Assembly: GCA_003054695.1 (NCBI GenBank)
Contig: QAZA01000010.1
Coordinates: forward strand, 283,602 to 347,601
Direction: 5' to 3'
DNA length: 64,000 nucleotides
DNA from: Verrucomicrobia bacterium LW23
Lineage (GTDB): Bacteria; Verrucomicrobiota; Verrucomicrobiia; Methylacidiphilales; UBA1321
Positions 9,662 to 18,506 of the stretch are shown here, piece after piece; position 1 is the stretch's first letter, and each line of letters opens with the position of its first letter. The notes under the pieces are model-generated. The model searched no databases. It was not told where the DNA came from and was given only the letters and a program-made list of their open reading frames with translations. Both the position numbers and the translations under genes were made by a program.

Positions 9662-10825
9662 TTATGCGCTACCTGACACAGCGCTGAGCGCCTTTTGCGA
9701 GCGCGAGACGCCCTGCCCCGGCTGCAGTGCCAGGATCTTGCCCGCAATGGCCCGCGCGGAGAAAAGCGTTTTGACGCGCGAGTGTCGCGCCGCCCGGTTG
9801 TTCCAGCTGGCCAGCATGCGACGCGCAGCAAGTTCCTGCAGGCCTTTGGCCAGATCCTTCACGTCACCAGCCTGAAATGTCAGGCAGTCCTGCGATCCCA
9901 GGTACTCGCGCAGGCCGATGCGGTTGGAGAGCAACACGGGCAGACCGACCGAGACCGCCTCCGCCGCGGCGATGGAGAAGGCTTCGTCGCCTATGGAGGG
10001 CGCCACGTAGGCGTCGGCGGAGCTGAGGAGCTCGCGCAGGTCGTCGTGGTCCAGCCGGCCGGTAAGGCGCACGTTCATCTCCACATCATGTTGCTTGATA
10101 AGGGCTTGCAGCTCCTTTAACTGCGGTCCGTCGCCGGCAATCTGGCAGGCCAGCTTCAGGCCGTTTTGGCGGGCCAGGGCAATCGCCTCAATCAGCGTGG
10201 CAAAGCCCTTCCAGCCCACCAGGCGGCCACTGGCGGCAAGGCGAAGCATGGTGGTTTGCTGCGGGGCGTCCGTCGTTGGCGCAAAGAACTCGGTATCAAC
10301 AGGATTGGGAAAAACGACCGGCCGCGATCCAACGCGCCGCAACGCCTGGTCCGCCACCGTATTGCTGACGGCGAACGCGGCATCCACCGTGGGGTAAAAC
10401 AGGCTGTCGCCCGGGTAAAAATCGGTGCCGTGCCAGCCCATGATGACGCGCATGGAGGGCTGGCTCAGCTTCCATCGCCAGGCTACGGGCCAGTCGAAAG
10501 GCTTTGCAAGTATGGCAACATCAAACTTTTCCGCAAGCCAGGCGCGATTGCACATCCACCCGAAATGGACGCGTTGCACCAGCCGCTGAAAGCGCGTGCC
10601 CAGGTTAAGGATGCGCCTGGTCTCCCAGTAATCGAAGAGCCGCAGCTGCAGTTTGGTGGTGCGGTGGCTGCGCCCGAACTTGGGTTTGCCGCCAAACAGC
10701 ACCACCTCGTGCCCCATCTCCTGCATCGCCTCGCCCACCGTAAAGGCAAAGCTTTCGATGCCGCCCACCTCGGTGGTGCCGGGGAGATCGAAGGTGGCGT
10801 TGGGGAGAAAAAAGCCAATTTTCAT
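9662..10825 (-). CDS. GT4-family (GT-B) glycosyltransferase
   Basis: 387 residues. The N-terminal domain opens MKIGFFLPN and contains GGIESFAF, the nucleotide-sugar enzyme turn seen in many GT4 proteins, then HEVVLFGG. The C-terminal donor domain has ASGRLVGWKGFATLIEAIA, AGDGPQL, VRLTGRLDHDDL and the EAFSIAAAEAVSVGLPVL loop, whose E-x7-E supplies the donor-binding glutamates. It probably adds a sugar to an envelope glycan; donor and acceptor are not predictable. The start MKIGFF is chosen because it begins the first beta strand. It faces the previous gene tail to tail. Confidence 0.85.
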   Translation of the reverse strand: MKIGFFLPNATFDLPGTTEVGGIESFAFTVGEAMQEMGHEVVLFGGKPKFGRSHRTTKLQLRLFDYWETRRILNLGTRFQRLVQRVHFGWMCNRAWLAEKFDVAILAKPFDWPVAWRWKLSQPSMRVIMGWHGTDFYPGDSLFYPTVDAAFAVSNTVADQALRRVGSRPVVFPNPVDTEFFAPTTDAPQQTTMLRLAASGRLVGWKGFATLIEAIALARQNGLKLACQIAGDGPQLKELQALIKQHDVEMNVRLTGRLDHDDLRELLSSADAYVAPSIGDEAFSIAAAEAVSVGLPVLLSNRIGLREYLGSQDCLTFQAGDVKDLAKGLQELAARRMLASWNNRAARHSRVKTLFSARAIAGKILALQPGQGVSRSQKALSAVSGSA

Positions 10826-11050
10826 GTACAAACGTGGAGCCAGCAGAAATGCCGCCCTCGTTGGCACGCGTCGAGCGGAAAAGCAAACATACGCCAGCAA
10901 AGCCCAACAAACGAGAGAATTCGCGCAAAATTATGGCGCTGCACCCGCCCACGGGCCGCGCCCCGGCAAATTGTGGACCAATCGGTTTAGACGCTACAAG
11001 TTTCCTTTTTAAGCCTTGACCATCGCTCCCATTTCGAGACATTTAGTCCG

Positions 11051-11830
11051 ATGCCTCGTTTTATCGATCTCAAGCAAGGGTTTGCGCAAATTGTCACGGA
11101 TCCCCACTGTCTGGCAAAGGTGTTGCTGGGTGGCTTCCTCCTGATCAATCCTTTTCTGCTCGCCTTGATTCCCACCTACGCGGCAGGGCTGGCGGACCCC
11201 AATGCGGCCGTCGGCTGGGTGCAACAGGTCTTCCCGTATATCCTTGCCTTTAACGTACTTACGTTCTGGTTTCCGCTCGGCTTTACCTACGAGGTTCTGC
11301 GCCGCGCCCGCTCCGGAAAGGGACGCCAGCTGCCGGACTGGTCTTTCTCCGTCCTGCCCCGCTATGCTTACGAGGGCTCCGTCAAACTGATCATCGCCAT
11401 CACCACCCTGCTTTTACCGGTAGGCGTTTATATGGGAGCGGTTTACGGTCTCTTCTTCCATTTGCTGGGCCTCCCGATGTCCCTGATGGCCATGTTTGTG
11501 CAGCCCATCATGCTGTTTGTCATCCCTTTTTGCGGCGTGGCGTGCTGCCGCTGGCTGGACGGCGCAGGTGTACTGGACTGCGCGTTCAACTATGCGGAGA
11601 ACATCCGCCTCTTTAAGCTGGGCTGGAAGGATTACCTGATTGCCAGCACCTTCCTCATCGGCGTAAATAGTGTAACCACAGCGTTTTACTACACCATCCC
11701 CTTTGGCGCCGTCTTCGGCCTTTGCCTGGTGGATACGTGGTTTGGCCCCATCTATGCGGAAACCGTCGCCACTGCTGCGCCGGTTGCGCAGCCCAAGGCC
11801 GAGCGAGTTCTCGAGACCTCCAAGGTCTAA
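11051..11830 (+). CDS. DUF4013 integral membrane protein
   Basis: 259 residues with about six hydrophobic segments. The pattern GGFLLINPFLLAL, then a long helix (YILAFNVLTFWFPLGFTYEV) and the polar motif LRRARSGKGRQLPDWS is the characteristic DUF4013 core (L-x-P-x-W after a basic loop). A later segment, CAFNYAENIRLFKLGWKDYL, matches the family's second half. Function unknown. No partner gene is coupled; it ends tail to tail with the RiPP-like operon. Confidence 0.72.
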   Translation: MPRFIDLKQGFAQIVTDPHCLAKVLLGGFLLINPFLLALIPTYAAGLADPNAAVGWVQQVFPYILAFNVLTFWFPLGFTYEVLRRARSGKGRQLPDWSFSVLPRYAYEGSVKLIIAITTLLLPVGVYMGAVYGLFFHLLGLPMSLMAMFVQPIMLFVIPFCGVACCRWLDGAGVLDCAFNYAENIRLFKLGWKDYLIASTFLIGVNSVTTAFYYTIPFGAVFGLCLVDTWFGPIYAETVATAAPVAQPKAERVLETSKV

Positions 11831-11894
11831 GCCAGGCCAGGCGGGCGCCCCAAGCCCAGCAGCGACAGCGCCGTCTCGCAAGGAGGCCGTACGG

Positions 11895-13148
11895 CTAGGA
11901 AGCCGTCGTCGCAACAGGTTGCTGCGCAGCCACTTCCGGTCGCAGGCGTTGGGCGGGCGCCGCCGTGGTTGTGGAGCCGCCCGGGCCCTCCGGCGCAACG
12001 GGGCGCGTGGCCCCAAGCAGAGCACGCTTGCGCAGTAATTGCCGGCCGTACTTCTCTGCCCGGCCAAAGACGGCTTTGTAAACTTCGCAGTACGGATCTT
12101 TGGCCTGCATCGTGCCGAGGGCGCTGTAGGTACGCACCGGGCAGCCGCCGTGGCAAATGCTCAGGTAACGGCAGGAGAGGCAGTCCTCTTCTTCCACCAG
12201 GCGGCGGGGCCGTTCGACAAACTCCTGCCGGGCGCGGCTGGTGCGCAGCATCCGCGTAAGGTCTTGCTCCTGAAAGACATTGCCAAAGAAATACTCGGGA
12301 TAGCTCGTCACCCAGCAGTCGCACTGGGCCACCGTTCCCTTGGAGTCCACCGAGATAAACTGGTTGGAGCAGTTCTCCTTCCAGATGCAGGGCAGGCGCG
12401 CAGTCTCCCCCGTAAAGTGGTGAATCAGCGCGTCAAAAGGCCCGAGGGCGACGCCCTTGTGGTGGCCTTGCTCCATCCACACGTCAAACAGCTCCGTCAA
12501 AAACTTTGCGAGGGCCGCGTTGTCCAGGATAAAACTGTTCTCGGACTCATTGGCCGGCCCTCCGGGGAACGGCGTGTTAACCTGAAAGTCTTCCAGCCCA
12601 AGCTCTTCCGTATAGTAGCGGTAGAACGCTTCGGCGCCGATCTCGAGGCTGGCCTGGTGCAGCACGGCAATCACCCCCACACGGATGCCCGCCGCCTGCG
12701 CCTCGCGCAAGCGCCGCGTCCACAGCGTTGTGTAGGAGTCCGCGCCGCCTTTAAGCAGCTTGCGATGGACGTTCGGGTAGTCCATGGATGTGCCCAGCGA
12801 TCCCTGGAACATGCTGTGGATCACCGGCTTCCATACGTCGGAGTAACTGACGAGATTGGTTTGCAGGTAGTGGATAAAGCGTTTGCCGCGAGCCGCAGCG
12901 GCCTCGTCCATTACCTTGCCGGCGTTAAGGAACCACTGCGCGCCCATAATCATCGCCTCGCCGCCCTGCCAGTAAATTTCGCACGCCTCCATCCCCTCAT
13001 GCTCCATGTGGTCCAGCAGGCGTTTGCTGAGGAGCGGCACCAGAAGTGCGGAAAGTTTGTGCGGCTCCTTATGCTCAAAGCAATAGTCGCACGCCACGTT
13101 GCACTCCGACGTGGGCAATAGGATAACACTGAAAACGCGTCCACTCAT
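11895..13148 (-). CDS. radical SAM/SPASM peptide maturase, GRRM-like
   Basis: 417 residues. The radical SAM site is CNVACDYC (Cys16, 20, 23) for the SAM-bound 4Fe-4S cluster, followed by YWQGGEAM, the GGEP-type SAM contact. The C-terminal SPASM domain has Cys254, 260, 276, 278 and then CLSCRYLSICHGGCP (Cys323, 326, 332, 336) with Cys354, enough for two auxiliary clusters. This matches anaerobic-sulfatase-maturase-like peptide-modifying enzymes. With the WVN-repeat precursor two genes upstream, the likely task is aromatic-to-side-chain carbon cross-linking (inference). The ATG overlaps the TGA of the companion gene (ATGA), which sets this start over a longer frame. Confidence 0.87.
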   Translation of the reverse strand: MSGRVFSVILLPTSECNVACDYCFEHKEPHKLSALLVPLLSKRLLDHMEHEGMEACEIYWQGGEAMIMGAQWFLNAGKVMDEAAAARGKRFIHYLQTNLVSYSDVWKPVIHSMFQGSLGTSMDYPNVHRKLLKGGADSYTTLWTRRLREAQAAGIRVGVIAVLHQASLEIGAEAFYRYYTEELGLEDFQVNTPFPGGPANESENSFILDNAALAKFLTELFDVWMEQGHHKGVALGPFDALIHHFTGETARLPCIWKENCSNQFISVDSKGTVAQCDCWVTSYPEYFFGNVFQEQDLTRMLRTSRARQEFVERPRRLVEEEDCLSCRYLSICHGGCPVRTYSALGTMQAKDPYCEVYKAVFGRAEKYGRQLLRKRALLGATRPVAPEGPGGSTTTAAPAQRLRPEVAAQQPVATTAS

Positions 13149-14086
13149 CGTTGCGCCTCCTCTTCCGCTTCGGCCAGGTCGGCCGCCATTTCGCGCGAGG
13201 CCGCGTGCAGCCTGCTGAAAAGCGAGCCCACGCCCTGGCACACGTAGTCGCGGTCCGGCCACTTGAAGTAGCCGCCGCACATCTCAAACCACTTGCATCG
13301 CGAGCACTCGGAGCCCTCCTCGACCAGCGACTGCATGTGATCCGTAACAAAATCAGCCAGCCTAGGGAGCTTCTCTGGCTCCACCGGGCGGTTGGTGCGA
13401 GGGTAAAGCGGCACGCCCTCGGCGTTGAGCCGCACGTAGAGCGCGGGGTCTTCTTCCAGAATAATCCATAGCGCGCCGGGCGGATATTTGCGCTCTCCCT
13501 CCTGCCCTTTTGCGAGGCCGGCTTCGGGCCGTGCCGACGCGTTGCCTGCTGCAACAGTTGCCGTGGCGGCAGAGTTTTCGCCTCCACTCTCATGCATCAT
13601 GGCCAGCACAGTATGGAACGGCTCCATCGGGGCCTCCACCATGGCGTGGTGCAGATAAAAGTCGGCCGCCTGCTCCAACTCGCGCACGACTTCGGCGGAC
13701 GGCTGACCGGGAACGATGCGTACCGGCAACCCAAGGGAACCCGCCAGGCGCACCGCCTTGGAGAAACCCGCCGAGGCAGGCATCGTAATGCGCACGCGGC
13801 GCACGGCATGCACGTCTACCAGGCGGTAGATAGCGGAGTACTCGACGGCCGGATTAAGGACAACGACGTCAAACGCAAGCTCGTCGCGCCCCTGGGCGGC
13901 GCGGGCCCACACGGAGGGATCGCCTATAAGTCCCTCCACCTCAACCCATTGCAAGGCAGGGGCCTGGCTTGTCAATACGCCCTCCATCTCCTCGGCGCGG
14001 GAGACAACCGCCGCGTGAGGCCAATCCTCCTGCCCGGACAGACTGGCTGCGGGCACGAGTGCAAGGGTTGAGGCGTTATGCAACAT
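13145..14086 (-). CDS. SPASM-like companion of the maturase, no radical SAM core
   Basis: 313 residues. There is no CxxxCxxC. The N-terminal 150 residues look like an alpha/beta domain (AFDVVVLNPAVEYSAIYRLV, VRRVRITMPASAGFSK, LGLPVRIVPGQPSAEVVREL), similar in style to the companion halves of split rSAM systems. The C-terminus has Cys261-x2-Cys264-x5-Cys270-GGYF and Cys283, a partial SPASM-type cluster motif. A low-complexity Ala/Gly linker separates the halves. It is translationally coupled to the rSAM gene by an ATGA overlap, which argues for a complex. Likely role: precursor binding or delivery, or an accessory cluster (inference). Confidence 0.68.
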   Translation of the reverse strand: MLHNASTLALVPAASLSGQEDWPHAAVVSRAEEMEGVLTSQAPALQWVEVEGLIGDPSVWARAAQGRDELAFDVVVLNPAVEYSAIYRLVDVHAVRRVRITMPASAGFSKAVRLAGSLGLPVRIVPGQPSAEVVRELEQAADFYLHHAMVEAPMEPFHTVLAMMHESGGENSAATATVAAGNASARPEAGLAKGQEGERKYPPGALWIILEEDPALYVRLNAEGVPLYPRTNRPVEPEKLPRLADFVTDHMQSLVEEGSECSRCKWFEMCGGYFKWPDRDYVCQGVGSLFSRLHAASREMAADLAEAEEEAQR

Positions 14087-14143
14087 GAGTCAACATACAG
14101 AAAGAAATGTGGATAAGCTCAAGGCAAACGGCTTCGTTTACGG

Positions 14144-14165
14144 GCGCGGCAACAGTTGTCGCCGC
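14144..14165 (-). promoter_or_regulatory. hairpin between precursor and companion genes
   Basis: GCGGC-AACAGTTGTC-GCCGC forms a strong stem in the 151-bp gap after the precursor stop and before the companion start. There is no T-run, so it is not a standard terminator. It could slow read-through or protect the precursor mRNA, giving more precursor than enzyme. Confidence 0.4.
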
Positions 14166-14237
14166 ACCCGGCTACCGGGCCGTACGCCCATGGCGCTGGC
14201 CCTGATCTGCAGCATAAGGGCTACAGTTACTAGCGGG

Positions 14238-14615
14238 TTACCAGCGGTTAACCCACGCGCCACCGCCACCGCCGCGACGATTGACCCAGCCGCCGCTACC
14301 GCCGCCGCCGTTAACCCATCCACCGCCACCGCCGCGGGCGTTGACCCAGCCGCCGCCGCCACCGCCGTTTACCCAGCCTCCACCGCCGCCGCGGCGATTG
14401 ACCCAGCCGCCGCCGCCACCGCCGCCGCCGCGGGCGTTTACCCAGCCCCAGGCGTTGGCACGGGGAGCACTGGCCAGCCAGCCGGCACCCACCACCGCAA
14501 GGATGGCGGCGCCCGACCACTTGCCGAGGCTCTGCAAAAAGCTGCGACGACCTTCCGCCAACTCGCTGCCGGCAACAACTGCCGGGGGAGTGGACGCTTC
14601 GTTATTTTCAGTCAT
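14238..14615 (-). CDS. Gly-rich WVN-repeat RiPP precursor (GrrA-like)
   Basis: 125 residues. An N-terminal 20-residue polar segment is followed by GRRSFLQ, a twin-arginine motif, a hydrophobic stretch and an A-x-A cleavage site (PRANA, residue 55). The rest is WGWVNAR and Gly runs carrying Trp-Val-Asn at residues 58, 71, 81, 90, 100, 110 and 121, spaced 9-13 residues, with Ala-Arg, Arg-Arg or Gly-Gly after each motif. It ends NRW. This is the plan of the rSAM-associated Gly-rich repeat (GrrA) precursors, and W-x-N fits the aromatic-x-x motif cross-linked by cyclophane-forming rSAM enzymes. The Tat signal suggests modification and folding in the cytoplasm before export. Confidence 0.85.
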   Translation of the reverse strand: MTENNEASTPPAVVAGSELAEGRRSFLQSLGKWSGAAILAVVGAGWLASAPRANAWGWVNARGGGGGGGGWVNRRGGGGGWVNGGGGGGWVNARGGGGGWVNGGGGSGGWVNRRGGGGGAWVNRW

Positions 14616-14639
14616 AGCAAGTGTTGAAAGGCGAAGGGG

Positions 14640-15137
14640 TTAGGCCTTGTCCGTGGCAAAGGTGGAGAAGTGCAGGGACGCAATCTTCCAGGCGCCGCCT
14701 TCCTTAACAAACGCCAGGGAAACATTCAGCGGGTAGGAGGCATCCTTGCCATCCTTCTTGGCCTTCGTGTCGCCCGCGACGGCCAGCCAGGCGGTGTCGC
14801 CCGTTACGGCGCCAATGCGGTGGCGGGATTCAAAGTCGTTATGCCCTTTGTCAAAGCTCTTGAAAAAGTTCTCGTACGCAACGGTCAGCTCTTCAGTGCC
14901 GCTCCACATCTCGCCGGGACCTGTCCCCAGCAGAACGCTCTTGGACGCGTAAACCTTCAGAACGCCCGGCAAATCGTGGTTGGTAAAGGCATCGTCATGC
15001 GCCTTCAGGAGAATGAAGAGTTCGGCGAATTCCTTCGGGACTTCTTTGGACTCGGCCGCGACCGCGGCGGCGGGAGCCACGGCCATGGCCGCAGCGAAAG
15101 TGGAAATTCCGGCAAAAATAGCTTCTCGACGATTCAT
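14640..15137 (-). CDS. exported NTF2/SnoaL-like (DUF4440-type) protein
   Basis: 165 residues. The N-terminus NRREAIFAGI plus an Ala-rich hydrophobic stretch ending AVAAES is a Tat-type signal. The mature part has the NTF2-like cone: a first helix (LFILLKAHDDAFTNHDLPGV), YASKSVLLGTGPGEMWSG, then strands DTAWLAVAGDT and YPLNVSLAFVKEGGAWKIASLHFS. Such folds hold small ligands or catalyse simple isomerisations; no catalytic dyad can be named here. It is the first gene of the RiPP-like operon, 24 bp before the precursor start, and shares its export route, so a role binding or finishing the exported peptide is plausible. Confidence 0.75.
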   Translation of the reverse strand: MNRREAIFAGISTFAAAMAVAPAAAVAAESKEVPKEFAELFILLKAHDDAFTNHDLPGVLKVYASKSVLLGTGPGEMWSGTEELTVAYENFFKSFDKGHNDFESRHRIGAVTGDTAWLAVAGDTKAKKDGKDASYPLNVSLAFVKEGGAWKIASLHFSTFATDKA

Positions 15138-15369
15138 AGGGATGGATCTGAAGGGGGTTAGTGCCTGAACTGAAGACTACAGACTACGGGCCAACTCCCC
15201 TATTGTGCTCCCTATCGCAATAATGTCAAGGCAGGCAAACCACTTTCACGCAACTGTATCCTTACCCATTAAAACTATGCAGCACCTGCACTATCCTGAC
15301 ATCTCCAGAAACGCAAACTTGAAGGTTGCCTGATGCCGCAGGAACCTGCATGATGCCCAACAGGTTGGC

Positions 15370-17322
15370 ATGAGTTCCCGTAATCCGGAAATCCAAATTA
15401 AGACAGGCTCCAGAATCGGCCACTACGTCATTGTCCAGAAGATTGCTGACGGCGGTATGGGTACCGTCTACAAGGCACTGGAGCCAATGCTGGAACGCTT
15501 CGTCGCGATCAAAGTGCTGCACCGCGACCTCGCCGCGGATCCCCAGCAACTTGCAAACTTTCGCGACGAGGCACGAAGTGTGGCCTCGCTGCGGCACGGG
15601 AATATCGTGCCCGTGCACTTCATCGGCCAGCAGGGTTCCCTTATCTATTTTGCCATGGCCTACATTGAGGGCCAGACGCTTGAACAGGTGGTAGATAGTG
15701 GCGTTACGCTGACACCGGATGTAGCCAAAAGCTACATGTACCAAGCCATTTCCGCACTGGAGCACGCCACGCGCTATGATATTGTTCACCTCGATATCAA
15801 GCCCAGCAACTTCCTTATCGACGCCTACGAAGTGGTGATGCTTACCGACTTTGGCCTGGCCCAAAAGGCCAGCCACGCGTCCAAGGACTCGCGCGAAATG
15901 TTCGGCACGCCCAGCTATTGTTCGCCCGAGCATATCTTTCAGCACGACACTGACTTACGCACGGACATCTACAGCCTTGGCGCCACGTTTTTCCACCTGA
16001 TGAGCGGGCGCCCACCCTACGAGGGCAAGACGAACCAGGACATCTGCCGCGGTCACGCCTTCCTCCCCTTCCCCGAGGAGGTGGCCCTGGATGCCGGAAT
16101 TCCTCGCGGCTGGGTGAACTTGTTGCAGAAAATGATGGAAAAAGAGCCCGCCAATCGCTTCCAAAATTATACGGAACTGCGTGAGGCTCTGGATGATATC
16201 GAAAATTTCCGGCATCGCCGCGAGACCGTCGCGCCACCCGATACCAACCGCCTGCGCGCCCTGCCCTCCAACACCAAAGCGCCGGAGATGATGTTCGGCA
16301 TCCTCCCGCCTGAGATCGTGGCGGAAGACGGAAAATACGAAATACGGAAAGTCTACAGCGCAGCCGAGGTGGAAGAAGCGTTGGTGCGCCGCGATAAGAT
16401 CCTCGGTCTCAACCTGTTACTGCCGGAAATAGCCGAGATGTGCCAGCCGCATGACGGCGACCTTGGCGACATCGTCAACACCATGGCGCGCCTGCCCGCG
16501 CTCAAAGCCACCATCTTCGAGCTTGCCGAATTTTTTGCCGCCCACCAGGGCGAGCAAGCCCCCGACGAAGCCACGGCCGTGGAGATCGTGGGCATTGGTC
16601 GCTGCCACAACCTCGGGCTGCTGTGCCTGATGCTGAAGAAAAAGTGGCAGCCCAGCAAACCGTTCGACTGGAGGTGCTTATGGCAACACATGGTCAGCAC
16701 CGGCCTGATCGTGGAAATGCTGTACGAGAAGCTGGGACTGACGCGGACCGGCCTGGAATTTGCCGCCGGCTCGCTTCACGACATTGGTAAGCTATTGTAT
16801 AGCGAGATGTTCCCCAACACCTATCCGGCAGCTCTCGTACAGGCCATGACGAACGACCAGCCGCTGCAGGCCAAGGAGAAGGAACTTTTCGGGCTCACCC
16901 ACTCGGAGATTGCGGAGCTCTGGCTGCGACGCCACAAAATCCGGCGAGCGCTTTCGGATGTCATTCTCTATCATGACAATCCGATCGCAATCCCCGAAAA
17001 GTCGGATCCCACCGGCATCGGCCTCGGCCGCCTGCTCGGCACTTCTTTTAACGGGCGCCAGCTTGCACATGCCGTTTGCTCGGCCAATCACCTGGCCAAG
17101 CACTTACGCCTGGGCTTCAGCGGCAGTACCTGGATGGAGCAGTGCGCGTGGGAATCCCATTTCAGCACACAATATCTGTGGCAGGCGCGCACCCGGCAAG
17201 ATCTTGACTGGAAGGCATTTGTGAAGTTTTTTAAGGAGGATTGCTCCACCTTCCCCATGCTCACGGCCGCGTACACGTTCGGCCCCCCTGCCGATGCCAC
17301 ATCGCGTCTGGGGCTGATGTAA
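15370..17322 (+). CDS. Ser/Thr protein kinase fused to an HDOD domain
   Basis: 650 residues, no membrane segment. Kinase domain about 19-285: glycine loop DGGMGTVYKA, VAIKVL (Lys48), catalytic HLDIKPSN (Asp142), DFG at 160-162, and SPE in place of APE. The HRD arginine is replaced by Leu, as in several bacterial kinases. A linker leads to a C-terminal HDOD-type helical domain (about 345-570) with AEMCQPHDGDLGDIVNTMARLPAL and a retained SLHDIGKLLY. HDOD domains usually act in signalling outputs. Expected role: cytoplasmic phosphorylation switch with an intramolecular regulatory or output module. Genes upstream run the opposite way, so it has its own promoter. Confidence 0.9.
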   Translation: MSSRNPEIQIKTGSRIGHYVIVQKIADGGMGTVYKALEPMLERFVAIKVLHRDLAADPQQLANFRDEARSVASLRHGNIVPVHFIGQQGSLIYFAMAYIEGQTLEQVVDSGVTLTPDVAKSYMYQAISALEHATRYDIVHLDIKPSNFLIDAYEVVMLTDFGLAQKASHASKDSREMFGTPSYCSPEHIFQHDTDLRTDIYSLGATFFHLMSGRPPYEGKTNQDICRGHAFLPFPEEVALDAGIPRGWVNLLQKMMEKEPANRFQNYTELREALDDIENFRHRRETVAPPDTNRLRALPSNTKAPEMMFGILPPEIVAEDGKYEIRKVYSAAEVEEALVRRDKILGLNLLLPEIAEMCQPHDGDLGDIVNTMARLPALKATIFELAEFFAAHQGEQAPDEATAVEIVGIGRCHNLGLLCLMLKKKWQPSKPFDWRCLWQHMVSTGLIVEMLYEKLGLTRTGLEFAAGSLHDIGKLLYSEMFPNTYPAALVQAMTNDQPLQAKEKELFGLTHSEIAELWLRRHKIRRALSDVILYHDNPIAIPEKSDPTGIGLGRLLGTSFNGRQLAHAVCSANHLAKHLRLGFSGSTWMEQCAWESHFSTQYLWQARTRQDLDWKAFVKFFKEDCSTFPMLTAAYTFGPPADATSRLGLM

Positions 17323-17383
17323 AGCGGCATCGTTACCCCTTGCGGCGCAGCTACTTAAAGGGAGGCGCAATCGCTCCATCGCC

Positions 17384-17968
17384 ATGGACATCATCACCTC
17401 GCGACTCCGGTTGCGCCGCTGGTCGCGCCACGATATTGTCCCCTTTTCGCTCATCAACGAGGACCCGCGCGTCATGCGTTTTATGCCGCGCACAATGAGC
17501 ATGGCCGAAACCAGGGAGTGGATCAACGTTATCGAAGCCCATTTTGAGGAGCACGGCTACGGCGTGTGGGCAGTGGAAAGACTTGATTCACAGAAGCTTA
17601 TAGGGTTCACAGGAATCCAGGTCCCCCGCTACGCCGCGGCGTTTACCCCTTGCGTGGAGGTCGGCTGGCGTTTCGCCTTTGAGGCGTGGGGAAACGGCTT
17701 TGCCACCGAAGCCGCGCACGCCGCCCTGGAATACGGCTTTTGCAAGGCAGGGCTGAGAGAAATTCTCTCCTTTACGGTGCCGGCCAATGAGAAATCCTGG
17801 CGTGTAATGGAGCGAATTGGCATGAGGCGCGACGAAAAGGCCGATTTTCACCATCCCGTTCTGCCTCAGGGACATCCGTTAAGTTTTCACTACCTCTATC
17901 GCATTGGCAAAGACGAATGGCTTCAGCGGTGCAATCCTCGCGCTACGCAGCAATCGGAAATACCGTAA
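17384..17968 (+). CDS. GNAT acetyltransferase, RimJ/RimL-like
   Basis: 194 residues. It starts TSRLRLRRWSRHDI, the RimJ/RimL opening, and continues with EVGWRFAFEAWGNGFATEA, which holds the acetyl-CoA pyrophosphate loop (WGNGFATEA in place of the usual Q/RGxGxA), and LREILSFTVPANEKSWRVMERIGM, the classic N-x-x-S-x-x-V-x-E-K/R-x-G-M finish. It would transfer acetyl from acetyl-CoA to an amino group; substrate unknown. Its last 26 bases overlap the end of kptA on the other strand. Confidence 0.87.
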   Translation: MDIITSRLRLRRWSRHDIVPFSLINEDPRVMRFMPRTMSMAETREWINVIEAHFEEHGYGVWAVERLDSQKLIGFTGIQVPRYAAAFTPCVEVGWRFAFEAWGNGFATEAAHAALEYGFCKAGLREILSFTVPANEKSWRVMERIGMRRDEKADFHHPVLPQGHPLSFHYLYRIGKDEWLQRCNPRATQQSEIP

Positions 17969-18506
17969 GGTATTGCGGCGGAACTGCATCCACAAGCCAC
18001 ACACCATTCTGCGTCTGAAAAAAGCGATGCCCGTCGCGATGCATGCGCCCTGTCGCCACCATTAGCACGATCGGCTTGCCGCGCCGACCACCCACACGCA
18101 CTGCAAAATCCACGCCGGGGGAAAGATGCACGTGCTGACGCCGCATCTTCATAAGCCCCTGTGCCATAATACTTTCCAGATACTCCGGTACGGTGCCATG
18201 GTAAAGCTCCTCCGGCGGCGCGGATGCCTCCAGCGCCAGGTCCACGCTTACCGAGTGCCCCTGATTGGCACGAATGCGCGAGCAATCCCCACTCAACGCA
18301 AAGCGTTGCTTATCATTGCTTTCCACAAGCTCCTCCAGCTCGGCAAAGCTTAGCGGCTTGCCGATGCGCGCCATGGCTTGCAGCAACTCGTCCACATCCA
18401 CCCAGCCATTCGCATCCAGTTGAATGCCAATGGATTCCGGCTGATGCCTCAGCACAAGACTCAGAAACTTGCTTTTGCGAACGTCCGAGCCCCAGCTGTA
18501 AGTCAT
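17943..18506 (-). CDS. kptA: RNA 2'-phosphotransferase (Tpt1/KptA)
   Basis: 187 residues, near the usual length. The N-terminal winged-helix part has KFLSLVLRHQPE and NGWVDVDELL, and FALSGDCSRIRANQGHS carries the first conserved Arg-x-x-(Q)GHS. The C-terminal ADP-ribosyltransferase part has LYHGTV, QHVHLSPGV and AVRVGGRRGKPIVL. KptA moves an RNA 2'-phosphate to NAD, giving ADP-ribose 1'',2''-cyclic phosphate and nicotinamide. It lies 12 bp behind purM on the same strand and probably shares its transcript; it overlaps the GNAT gene end to end. Confidence 0.92.
   Translation of the reverse strand: MTYSWGSDVRKSKFLSLVLRHQPESIGIQLDANGWVDVDELLQAMARIGKPLSFAELEELVESNDKQRFALSGDCSRIRANQGHSVSVDLALEASAPPEELYHGTVPEYLESIMAQGLMKMRRQHVHLSPGVDFAVRVGGRRGKPIVLMVATGRMHRDGHRFFQTQNGVWLVDAVPPQYLTVFPIAA

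Follow-up and report, generated by a model that had tools for sequence, protein, structure and literature searches.

The window analysed here is a stretch of 64,000 nucleotides from Verrucomicrobia bacterium LW23 (contig QAZA01000010.1; G000:C10:283602-347601 in our numbering, from an assembly of 6.6 Mb). Positions 11895–15137 of the window hold a cassette of four genes, which encode an NTF2-like protein, a glycine-rich precursor peptide, a companion protein and a radical S-adenosylmethionine (SAM)/SPASM maturase. An earlier note, made from the DNA letters alone, had described four co-directional genes in this interval, among them a glycine-rich WVN precursor and a radical SAM/SPASM maturase. 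All four are present on the − strand, the precursor carries seven WVN repeats, and the maturase carries both a CX3CX2C motif and a full set of SPASM cysteines. In order of transcription, followed by the promoter-like site, the features are:

14640–15137, − strand: NTF2-like (SnoaL_3) protein of 165 residues, gene 1 of the cassette (Pfam PF13474, 1.4e-15)
14238–14615, − strand: precursor peptide of 125 residues, with a leader of the twin-arginine translocation (Tat) type and a glycine-rich core with seven WVN units (RRxFL, GKWS and W-x-N shared by 14 homologues)
14532–14549, − strand: twin-arginine motif of the precursor, R23-R24-S-F-L-Q (RRxFL in 14/14 homologues)
14241–14450, − strand: predicted mature core, after A53-N-A55 (putative cleavage site, from the AxA motif)
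13145–14086, − strand: companion of 313 residues, predicted pseudo-radical-SAM/SPASM protein without CX3CX2C (AlphaFold model, Foldseek, structural Z score)
13238–13306, − strand: companion cluster site, C261-X2-C264-X5-C270-X12-C283 (invariant in 14/14; hhalign E 3.2e-5 to the maturase)
11895–13148, − strand: radical SAM/SPASM maturase of 417 residues (family models, alignment of homologues)
13080–13103, − strand: radical SAM motif of the maturase, CNVACDYC (C16, C20, C23; invariant in 12/12)
12087–12389, − strand: SPASM region of the maturase, C254...C260...C276-D277-C278...C323-X2-C326-X5-C332-X3-C336...C354 (TIGR04085, 5e-15; all cysteines invariant)
15202–15229, − strand: promoter-like TTGACA-16-CACAAT, about 65 bases upstream of the first gene (consensus match)

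The genes are separated by 24 bases (NTF2-like gene and precursor) and 151 bases (precursor and companion), and the companion and maturase genes overlap by 4 bases. The 151-base gap at 14087–14237 exceeds the others; a terminator-like site was looked for there and none was found. No Rfam element was detected at window positions 10000–18000. The sigma-70-like promoter site is a consensus match only, with one match observed against 0.5 expected in shuffled sequence.

The W-V-N units of the window precursor lie at residues 58, 71, 81, 90, 100, 110 and 121, and they are encoded by mixed synonymous codons (GTA/GTC/GTT and AAC/AAT). Across 14 homologous precursors, 72 of the 74 core asparagines stand two residues after a tryptophan, an arrangement that involves 72 of the 93 core tryptophans. 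In 2000 within-core shuffles this position was taken by 9.5 asparagines on average and never by more than 19, so the W-x-N repetition is far beyond chance. The middle residue is Ile, Val, Leu or Phe (once Asn), and the residue following the asparagine is Arg in 55 of the 72 repeats; in the other 17, including the WVNG of the window, its place is taken by Gly, Ala, Trp or Ser. Spacers vary between GGGG types and GPRRG types (the latter in L006, L009, L011 and L016) while W-x-N stays constant. All 14 precursors also share an N-terminal RRxFL...GKWS...A stretch, in which GKWS, located after the arginine pair, is invariant. The precursors thus show an arrangement typical of the triceptide product class, an aromatic-x-x repeat with a conserved third residue encoded beside a SPASM enzyme.

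The GrrA/OscA1 model TIGR04260 (cut-off 31 bits) did not match the window precursor; the cores of some homologues matched the C-terminal half of the model at 20.6–21.2 bits, below that cut-off. Similar aromatic-x-Asn repeats (WLN/WSN/WNN/WHN) occur in GrrM-linked precursors on Phaeobacter plasmids. One of these (L073:2633-2977), which the GrrA/OscA1 model also misses, has a Sec-like leader and a dense tail of WLN, WSN, WNN, WHN, FSN and WGN.

The leader of the precursor is probably a Tat signal peptide, because the RRxFL-type motif is found in 14 of 14 homologues; a hydrophobic stretch and an AxA motif follow, as in Tat substrates. The Tat model TIGR01409 scored one precursor homologue at 15.0, near but under its cut-off of 16.7, and a TatC gene is present in all 14 genomes that carry the cassette. 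Tat export had previously been assigned to the NTF2-like protein. Its fold assignment holds (SnoaL_3, 58 bits; cut-off 22), but the clear Tat motif sits on the precursor: an alignment of 12 NTF2-like members shows only a weak MNRRxxI motif and an N-terminal signal-like stretch ending in AxA.

No Pfam or NCBIfam family matched the companion above cut-off. An AlphaFold (AF2) model built from 14 homologues was of good quality (predicted local distance difference test, pLDDT, 86.6), and its top Foldseek match was the anaerobic sulfatase-maturing enzyme (anSME) anSMEcpe, with a probability of 1.00. Structural Z scores over approximately 255 residues were 13.5 for ChlB, 12.9 for anSME, 11.3 for TigE and 10.9 for 5why, with the next match at 8.2. 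In an alignment of 14 companions the CX3CX2C motif is absent and C261, C264, C270 and C283 are the only invariant cysteines. Profile comparison aligns these four with C323, C326, C332 and C354 of the maturase. From what is known of anSME, we take them to be the ligand set of auxiliary cluster II; the ligands for cluster I and for the SAM cluster are missing. As the predicted fold matches over almost the whole length, CX3CX2C is absent and one ligand set is kept, we predict that the companion is a pseudo-radical-SAM/SPASM protein over its full length, with both barrel and SPASM folds, and probably a one-cluster protein rather than a mere detached SPASM domain. An earlier description as SPASM-like without a radical SAM core was incomplete, in that a radical-SAM-like barrel, lacking the cluster motif, is predicted.

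The most likely translation start of the maturase gene is 13148 (MSGRVF...), which is preceded by a GGAGG-like site and gives the 4-base overlap with the companion stop; the longer open reading frame with a GTG start at 13280 is disfavoured. C16, C20, C23 and eight SPASM cysteines are invariant in 12 maturases, and the SPASM model TIGR04085 scores 55.8 bits against a cut-off of 27, which places the enzyme in the radical SAM/SPASM superfamily. Among solved structures, anSME (4k36/4k37) is the nearest in sequence. The two best family models, DynA (NF041298, 145 bits, cut-off 450) and anaerobic sulfatase maturase (TIGR03942, 143 bits, cut-off 349), both fell below their cut-offs, followed by DarW (124), DarE (105), GrrM/OscB (83, cut-off 310), YhhB (70), XyeB (59) and FxsB (59). 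By comparison, anSMEs of relatives score 467–519 bits on TIGR03942, and the 12 maturase homologues match the GrrM model TIGR04261 at the 1e-23 level at best. A tree of 39 sequences united the 12 cassette maturases in one clade (support 100/100) and the anSMEs in another (100/99), with GrrM, XyeB, FxsB and YhhB forming a third group (87/70) outside which the cassette maturases fall. Constraining the cassette to join GrrM lowered the log-likelihood by 19.5 (approximately unbiased, AU, test p 0.032), so this grouping is mildly disfavoured.

The genome of the window also encodes, at another site, an enzyme of the GrrM family proper (437 bits, cut-off 310; L019:4291-5529, − strand; G000:C11:314901-315992). 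It adjoins unrelated genes, one of them ExbD-like, and no recognisable glycine-rich precursor is found there; this is a second radical SAM peptide system of the genome. Elsewhere, on large plasmids (L064, NZ_CP093017.1 49–64 kb; L081, Vibrio vulnificus; L085, Photobacterium), three to five radical SAM/SPASM genes in a row adjoin type IV pilus/type II secretion-like genes, and the Pseudomonas plasmid among them also encodes a small protein ending in CHTACHGACHGACHG. These Pseudomonas and Vibrionaceae loci look like a separate system for radical SAM peptide or pilin modification.

Scanning genome_contigs with the maturase alignment recovered 13 loci besides the window. They belong to a Prosthecobacter debontii metagenome-assembled genome (MAG), Verrucomicrobium sp. 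BvORR034, Chthoniobacter flavus Ellin428, MAGs of Chthoniobacteraceae and other Verrucomicrobiota, one MAG titled 'bacterium' and two labelled Candidatus Eremiobacterota; the hosts are mostly Verrucomicrobiota from soil or water. At each of the 14 maturase loci the full set of four is found, arranged identically, with the NTF2-like gene clipped by a contig end in two; the four-gene set is thus a real conserved unit. Identity to the window is 71–77% for the maturase (11 other full-length homologues), approximately 38–51% for the companion, 38–52% for the NTF2-like protein and 41–69% for the precursor. In Chthoniobacter flavus (L014, 7200–7300) the start and body of the companion lie in different frames, through either a draft-genome frameshift or a damaged gene.

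Across 388 sampled genomes of the phylum, separate searches with the companion, maturase and NTF2-like families found only the genome of the window and one other (G271). The precursor profile found the same two, with weak matches (E ~1e-4) in G371 and G158 that look spurious, one covering the Tat-leader half only and the other lying within a frame of 8129 residues. No relatives were found in the 60 nearest genomes, which makes the distribution of the cassette patchy. Flanking genes were compared all against all, and none, including any peptidase or transporter, was common to three or more loci. The two Eremiobacterota-labelled loci (L012 and L013) have common chromosomal flanks, including ribosomal protein S2-like and EF-Ts-like genes, unlike those of the verrucomicrobial loci, and their maturases nest among the verrucomicrobial ones, as horizontal transfer would predict if the MAG labels are correct. 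A viral origin was considered and set aside, as scans of viral_contigs with the companion and maturase gave no relative.

One genome (that of L009) holds, beside an intact operon elsewhere, a decayed cassette copy (L063, G445:C94:7500-14500, positions 1085–2807) in which the NTF2-like and precursor genes are intact, the companion is split by frame changes and no maturase was found adjoining. The companion seems not to be retained without the maturase. Apart from this copy, the precursor occurred only with the operon among the 388 genomes, rather than being widespread without a SPASM enzyme. Two proposals were borne out: that this is a RiPP-type operon (RiPP, ribosomally synthesised and post-translationally modified peptide) and, in the loci and phylum sample examined, that W-x-N precursors are always accompanied by the companion and NTF2-like genes. 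Also upheld was the suggestion that the third gene of GRRM systems is unrecognisable here, since the four proteins and two neighbouring genes matched no GrrP model in NCBIfam. W-x-N is indeed a motif cross-linked by GrrM-type enzymes, OscB being the example (review PMC11002830). The claim that found no support was that of a branch of GRRM, given the maturase score (83 against 310 bits), its position in the tree outside the GrrM/XyeB/FxsB/YhhB group and the AU test. At the family level the GRRM reading is unsupported, though it was right in spirit, since W-x-N peptide maturation gains a new branch with this cassette.

It is likely that the cassette makes an exported glycine-rich peptide in which each W-x-N unit is closed by a three-residue Trp–Asn cyclophane, installed in the cytoplasm before Tat export. 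For the cross-link chemistry and the roles of the companion and NTF2-like protein, we infer the following sequence. The companion would pair with the maturase in the cytoplasm, where it may bind the leader, relay electrons through its one cluster, or both, with the invariant GKWS as candidate leader recognition site. The maturase would then form, in each repeat, a bond between the Trp ring and C-beta of the i+2 Asn, like OscB/GrrM, for an expected change of −2 Da per repeat and up to seven repeats in the window precursor. The rigid modified peptide would exit through Tat, signal peptidase would cleave it after AxA, and the exported NTF2-like protein might bind or handle it outside the cytoplasm; no peptidase or transporter of the cassette's own would be required. 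The bond made by OscB runs from C7 of the Trp to C-beta of an Asn/Asp at i+2 (PMC11002830), and this analogy, together with the aromatic-x-Asn precursors beside annotated plasmid GrrM genes, makes a Trp–Asn cyclophane the most likely product. Export by Tat, which moves folded proteins (PMC10924467), would suit a product already rigid in the cytoplasm. Intermolecular electron transfer via an auxiliary cluster has a precedent in PapB, although not with a dead paralogue (PMC10470005). Several points weigh against this proposal. No characterised cyclophane family includes the maturase, and the models closest to it are those of DynA and anaerobic sulfatase maturase, which makes a different linkage (i to i+3, Trp–Arg, ether or oxidation) possible; many motifs read WxNR, which makes the Arg at +3 a candidate partner as well. 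Moreover, the tree was built without DynA and DarE sequences, the structure model of the maturase was poor (pLDDT 64) and was not used, and the roles given to the companion and NTF2-like protein are drawn from position and fold only.

A more specific version, which we regard as possible but doubtful, treats the operon as a radical SAM system split between two proteins. As an obligate partner, the dead paralogue would read the Tat signal peptide as the leader of a RiPP and provide the active enzyme with one more auxiliary Fe–S cluster, and the active enzyme would install a chain of Trp–Asn cyclophanes; Tat would be needed because the resulting cross-linked structural or signalling peptide is already rigid. 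Unlikely is a RiPP cassette with a different link, in which an enzyme related to DynA or anSME would form Trp–Arg bonds at +3 (WxNR), Trp-x-x-(N/R) bonds as in dynobactin and darobactin, a Trp–Trp ether or an oxidation. The DynA and anaerobic sulfatase maturase scores, well above that of GrrM, the placement of the maturase outside the GrrM/XyeB/FxsB group and the frequent Arg after Asn would all fit such chemistry. However, that Arg is replaced in 17 of 72 repeats, the window's WVNG included, while the Asn is fixed, and dynobactin joins Trp to an Asn at i+3 (PMC11002830), whereas the cassette Asn is always at i+2.

Two further explanations are much less probable. A true GRRM/OscB system, with a diverged GrrM, a GrrA precursor and a swapped third gene, would account for the glycine-rich W-x-N core and the weak GrrA/OscA1 matches, yet is improbable given a GrrM score that is similarly low in all homologues tested, the fully supported separate clade and the AU result, the second, genuine GrrM-family enzyme in the same genome, the lack of any matched GrrP-like gene and the Tat-type leader. 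We give least credence to an unmodified glycine-rich structural protein that is merely exported, the enzyme acting instead on the NTF2-like protein or on a sulfatase. Glycine-rich repeats are common in structural proteins, and the maturase has anSME-like Cys spacing and a Cys–Asp motif; against this, the cassette has no sulfatase gene, the precursor and maturase families are coextensive, W-x-N is kept when spacers are not, and the second copy that lost the maturase also has a decayed companion.

The cassette adds to the SPASM enzymes a maturase clade of its own that acts, on this reading, on W-x-N peptides; this suggests more than one origin or spread of Trp–Asn cross-linking within these enzymes. 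The companion, keeping one auxiliary-cluster ligand set alone, offers a clean case for the role of catalytically dead radical SAM partners, and the leader suggests an unusual export logic, with Tat used for an enzyme-stapled peptide. Since the hosts include Chthoniobacter flavus and Prosthecobacter, searches for the native product may be feasible. A literature search, with most subscription papers and supplementary tables outside its reach, found no earlier description of the cassette; clusters 19 and 63 of PMC9062424, with Aro-Asn/Aro-Xaa-Asn peptides, could include relatives. What appears novel is a pseudo-radical-SAM/SPASM companion that keeps exactly one auxiliary-cluster ligand set, together with a precursor bearing a Tat motif.

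Among known systems, the triceptides (GrrM/OscB, XyeB/XncB, FxsB and YhhB) resemble the cassette in that a radical SAM/SPASM enzyme is encoded next to a precursor in which aromatic-x-Asn recurs. They differ in that the cassette maturase forms a separate clade and scores below every curated cut-off, and in that the cassette has a pseudo-radical-SAM partner, an NTF2-like protein and a Tat-type leader in the absence of a matched GrrP-like gene. The dynobactin and darobactin maturases (DynA, DarE and DarW) provide, with anSME, the top-scoring models, and the dynobactin enzyme also joins Trp and Asn. The cassette maturase nevertheless reaches only 145 of the 450 bits set for DynA, the dynobactin motif is W-x-x-N rather than W-x-N, genes for a DarBCD-type transporter are lacking, and the cassette precursor is long and repetitive. 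The anSMEs share the SPASM Cys pattern with the maturase, including Cys–Asp at residues 276–277, and supply its nearest solved structures as well as the companion's Foldseek match; here, in contrast, the score is 143 against 349 bits, and a WxN repeat peptide, not a sulfatase, takes the place of substrate-like partner. Proteins of the TIGR04347 type are radical-SAM/SPASM-like, lack the radical SAM cluster and are encoded beside an active maturase. The companion differs from such pseudo-radical-SAM proteins in that it is matched by no NCBIfam or Pfam model and keeps the auxiliary cluster II set only.

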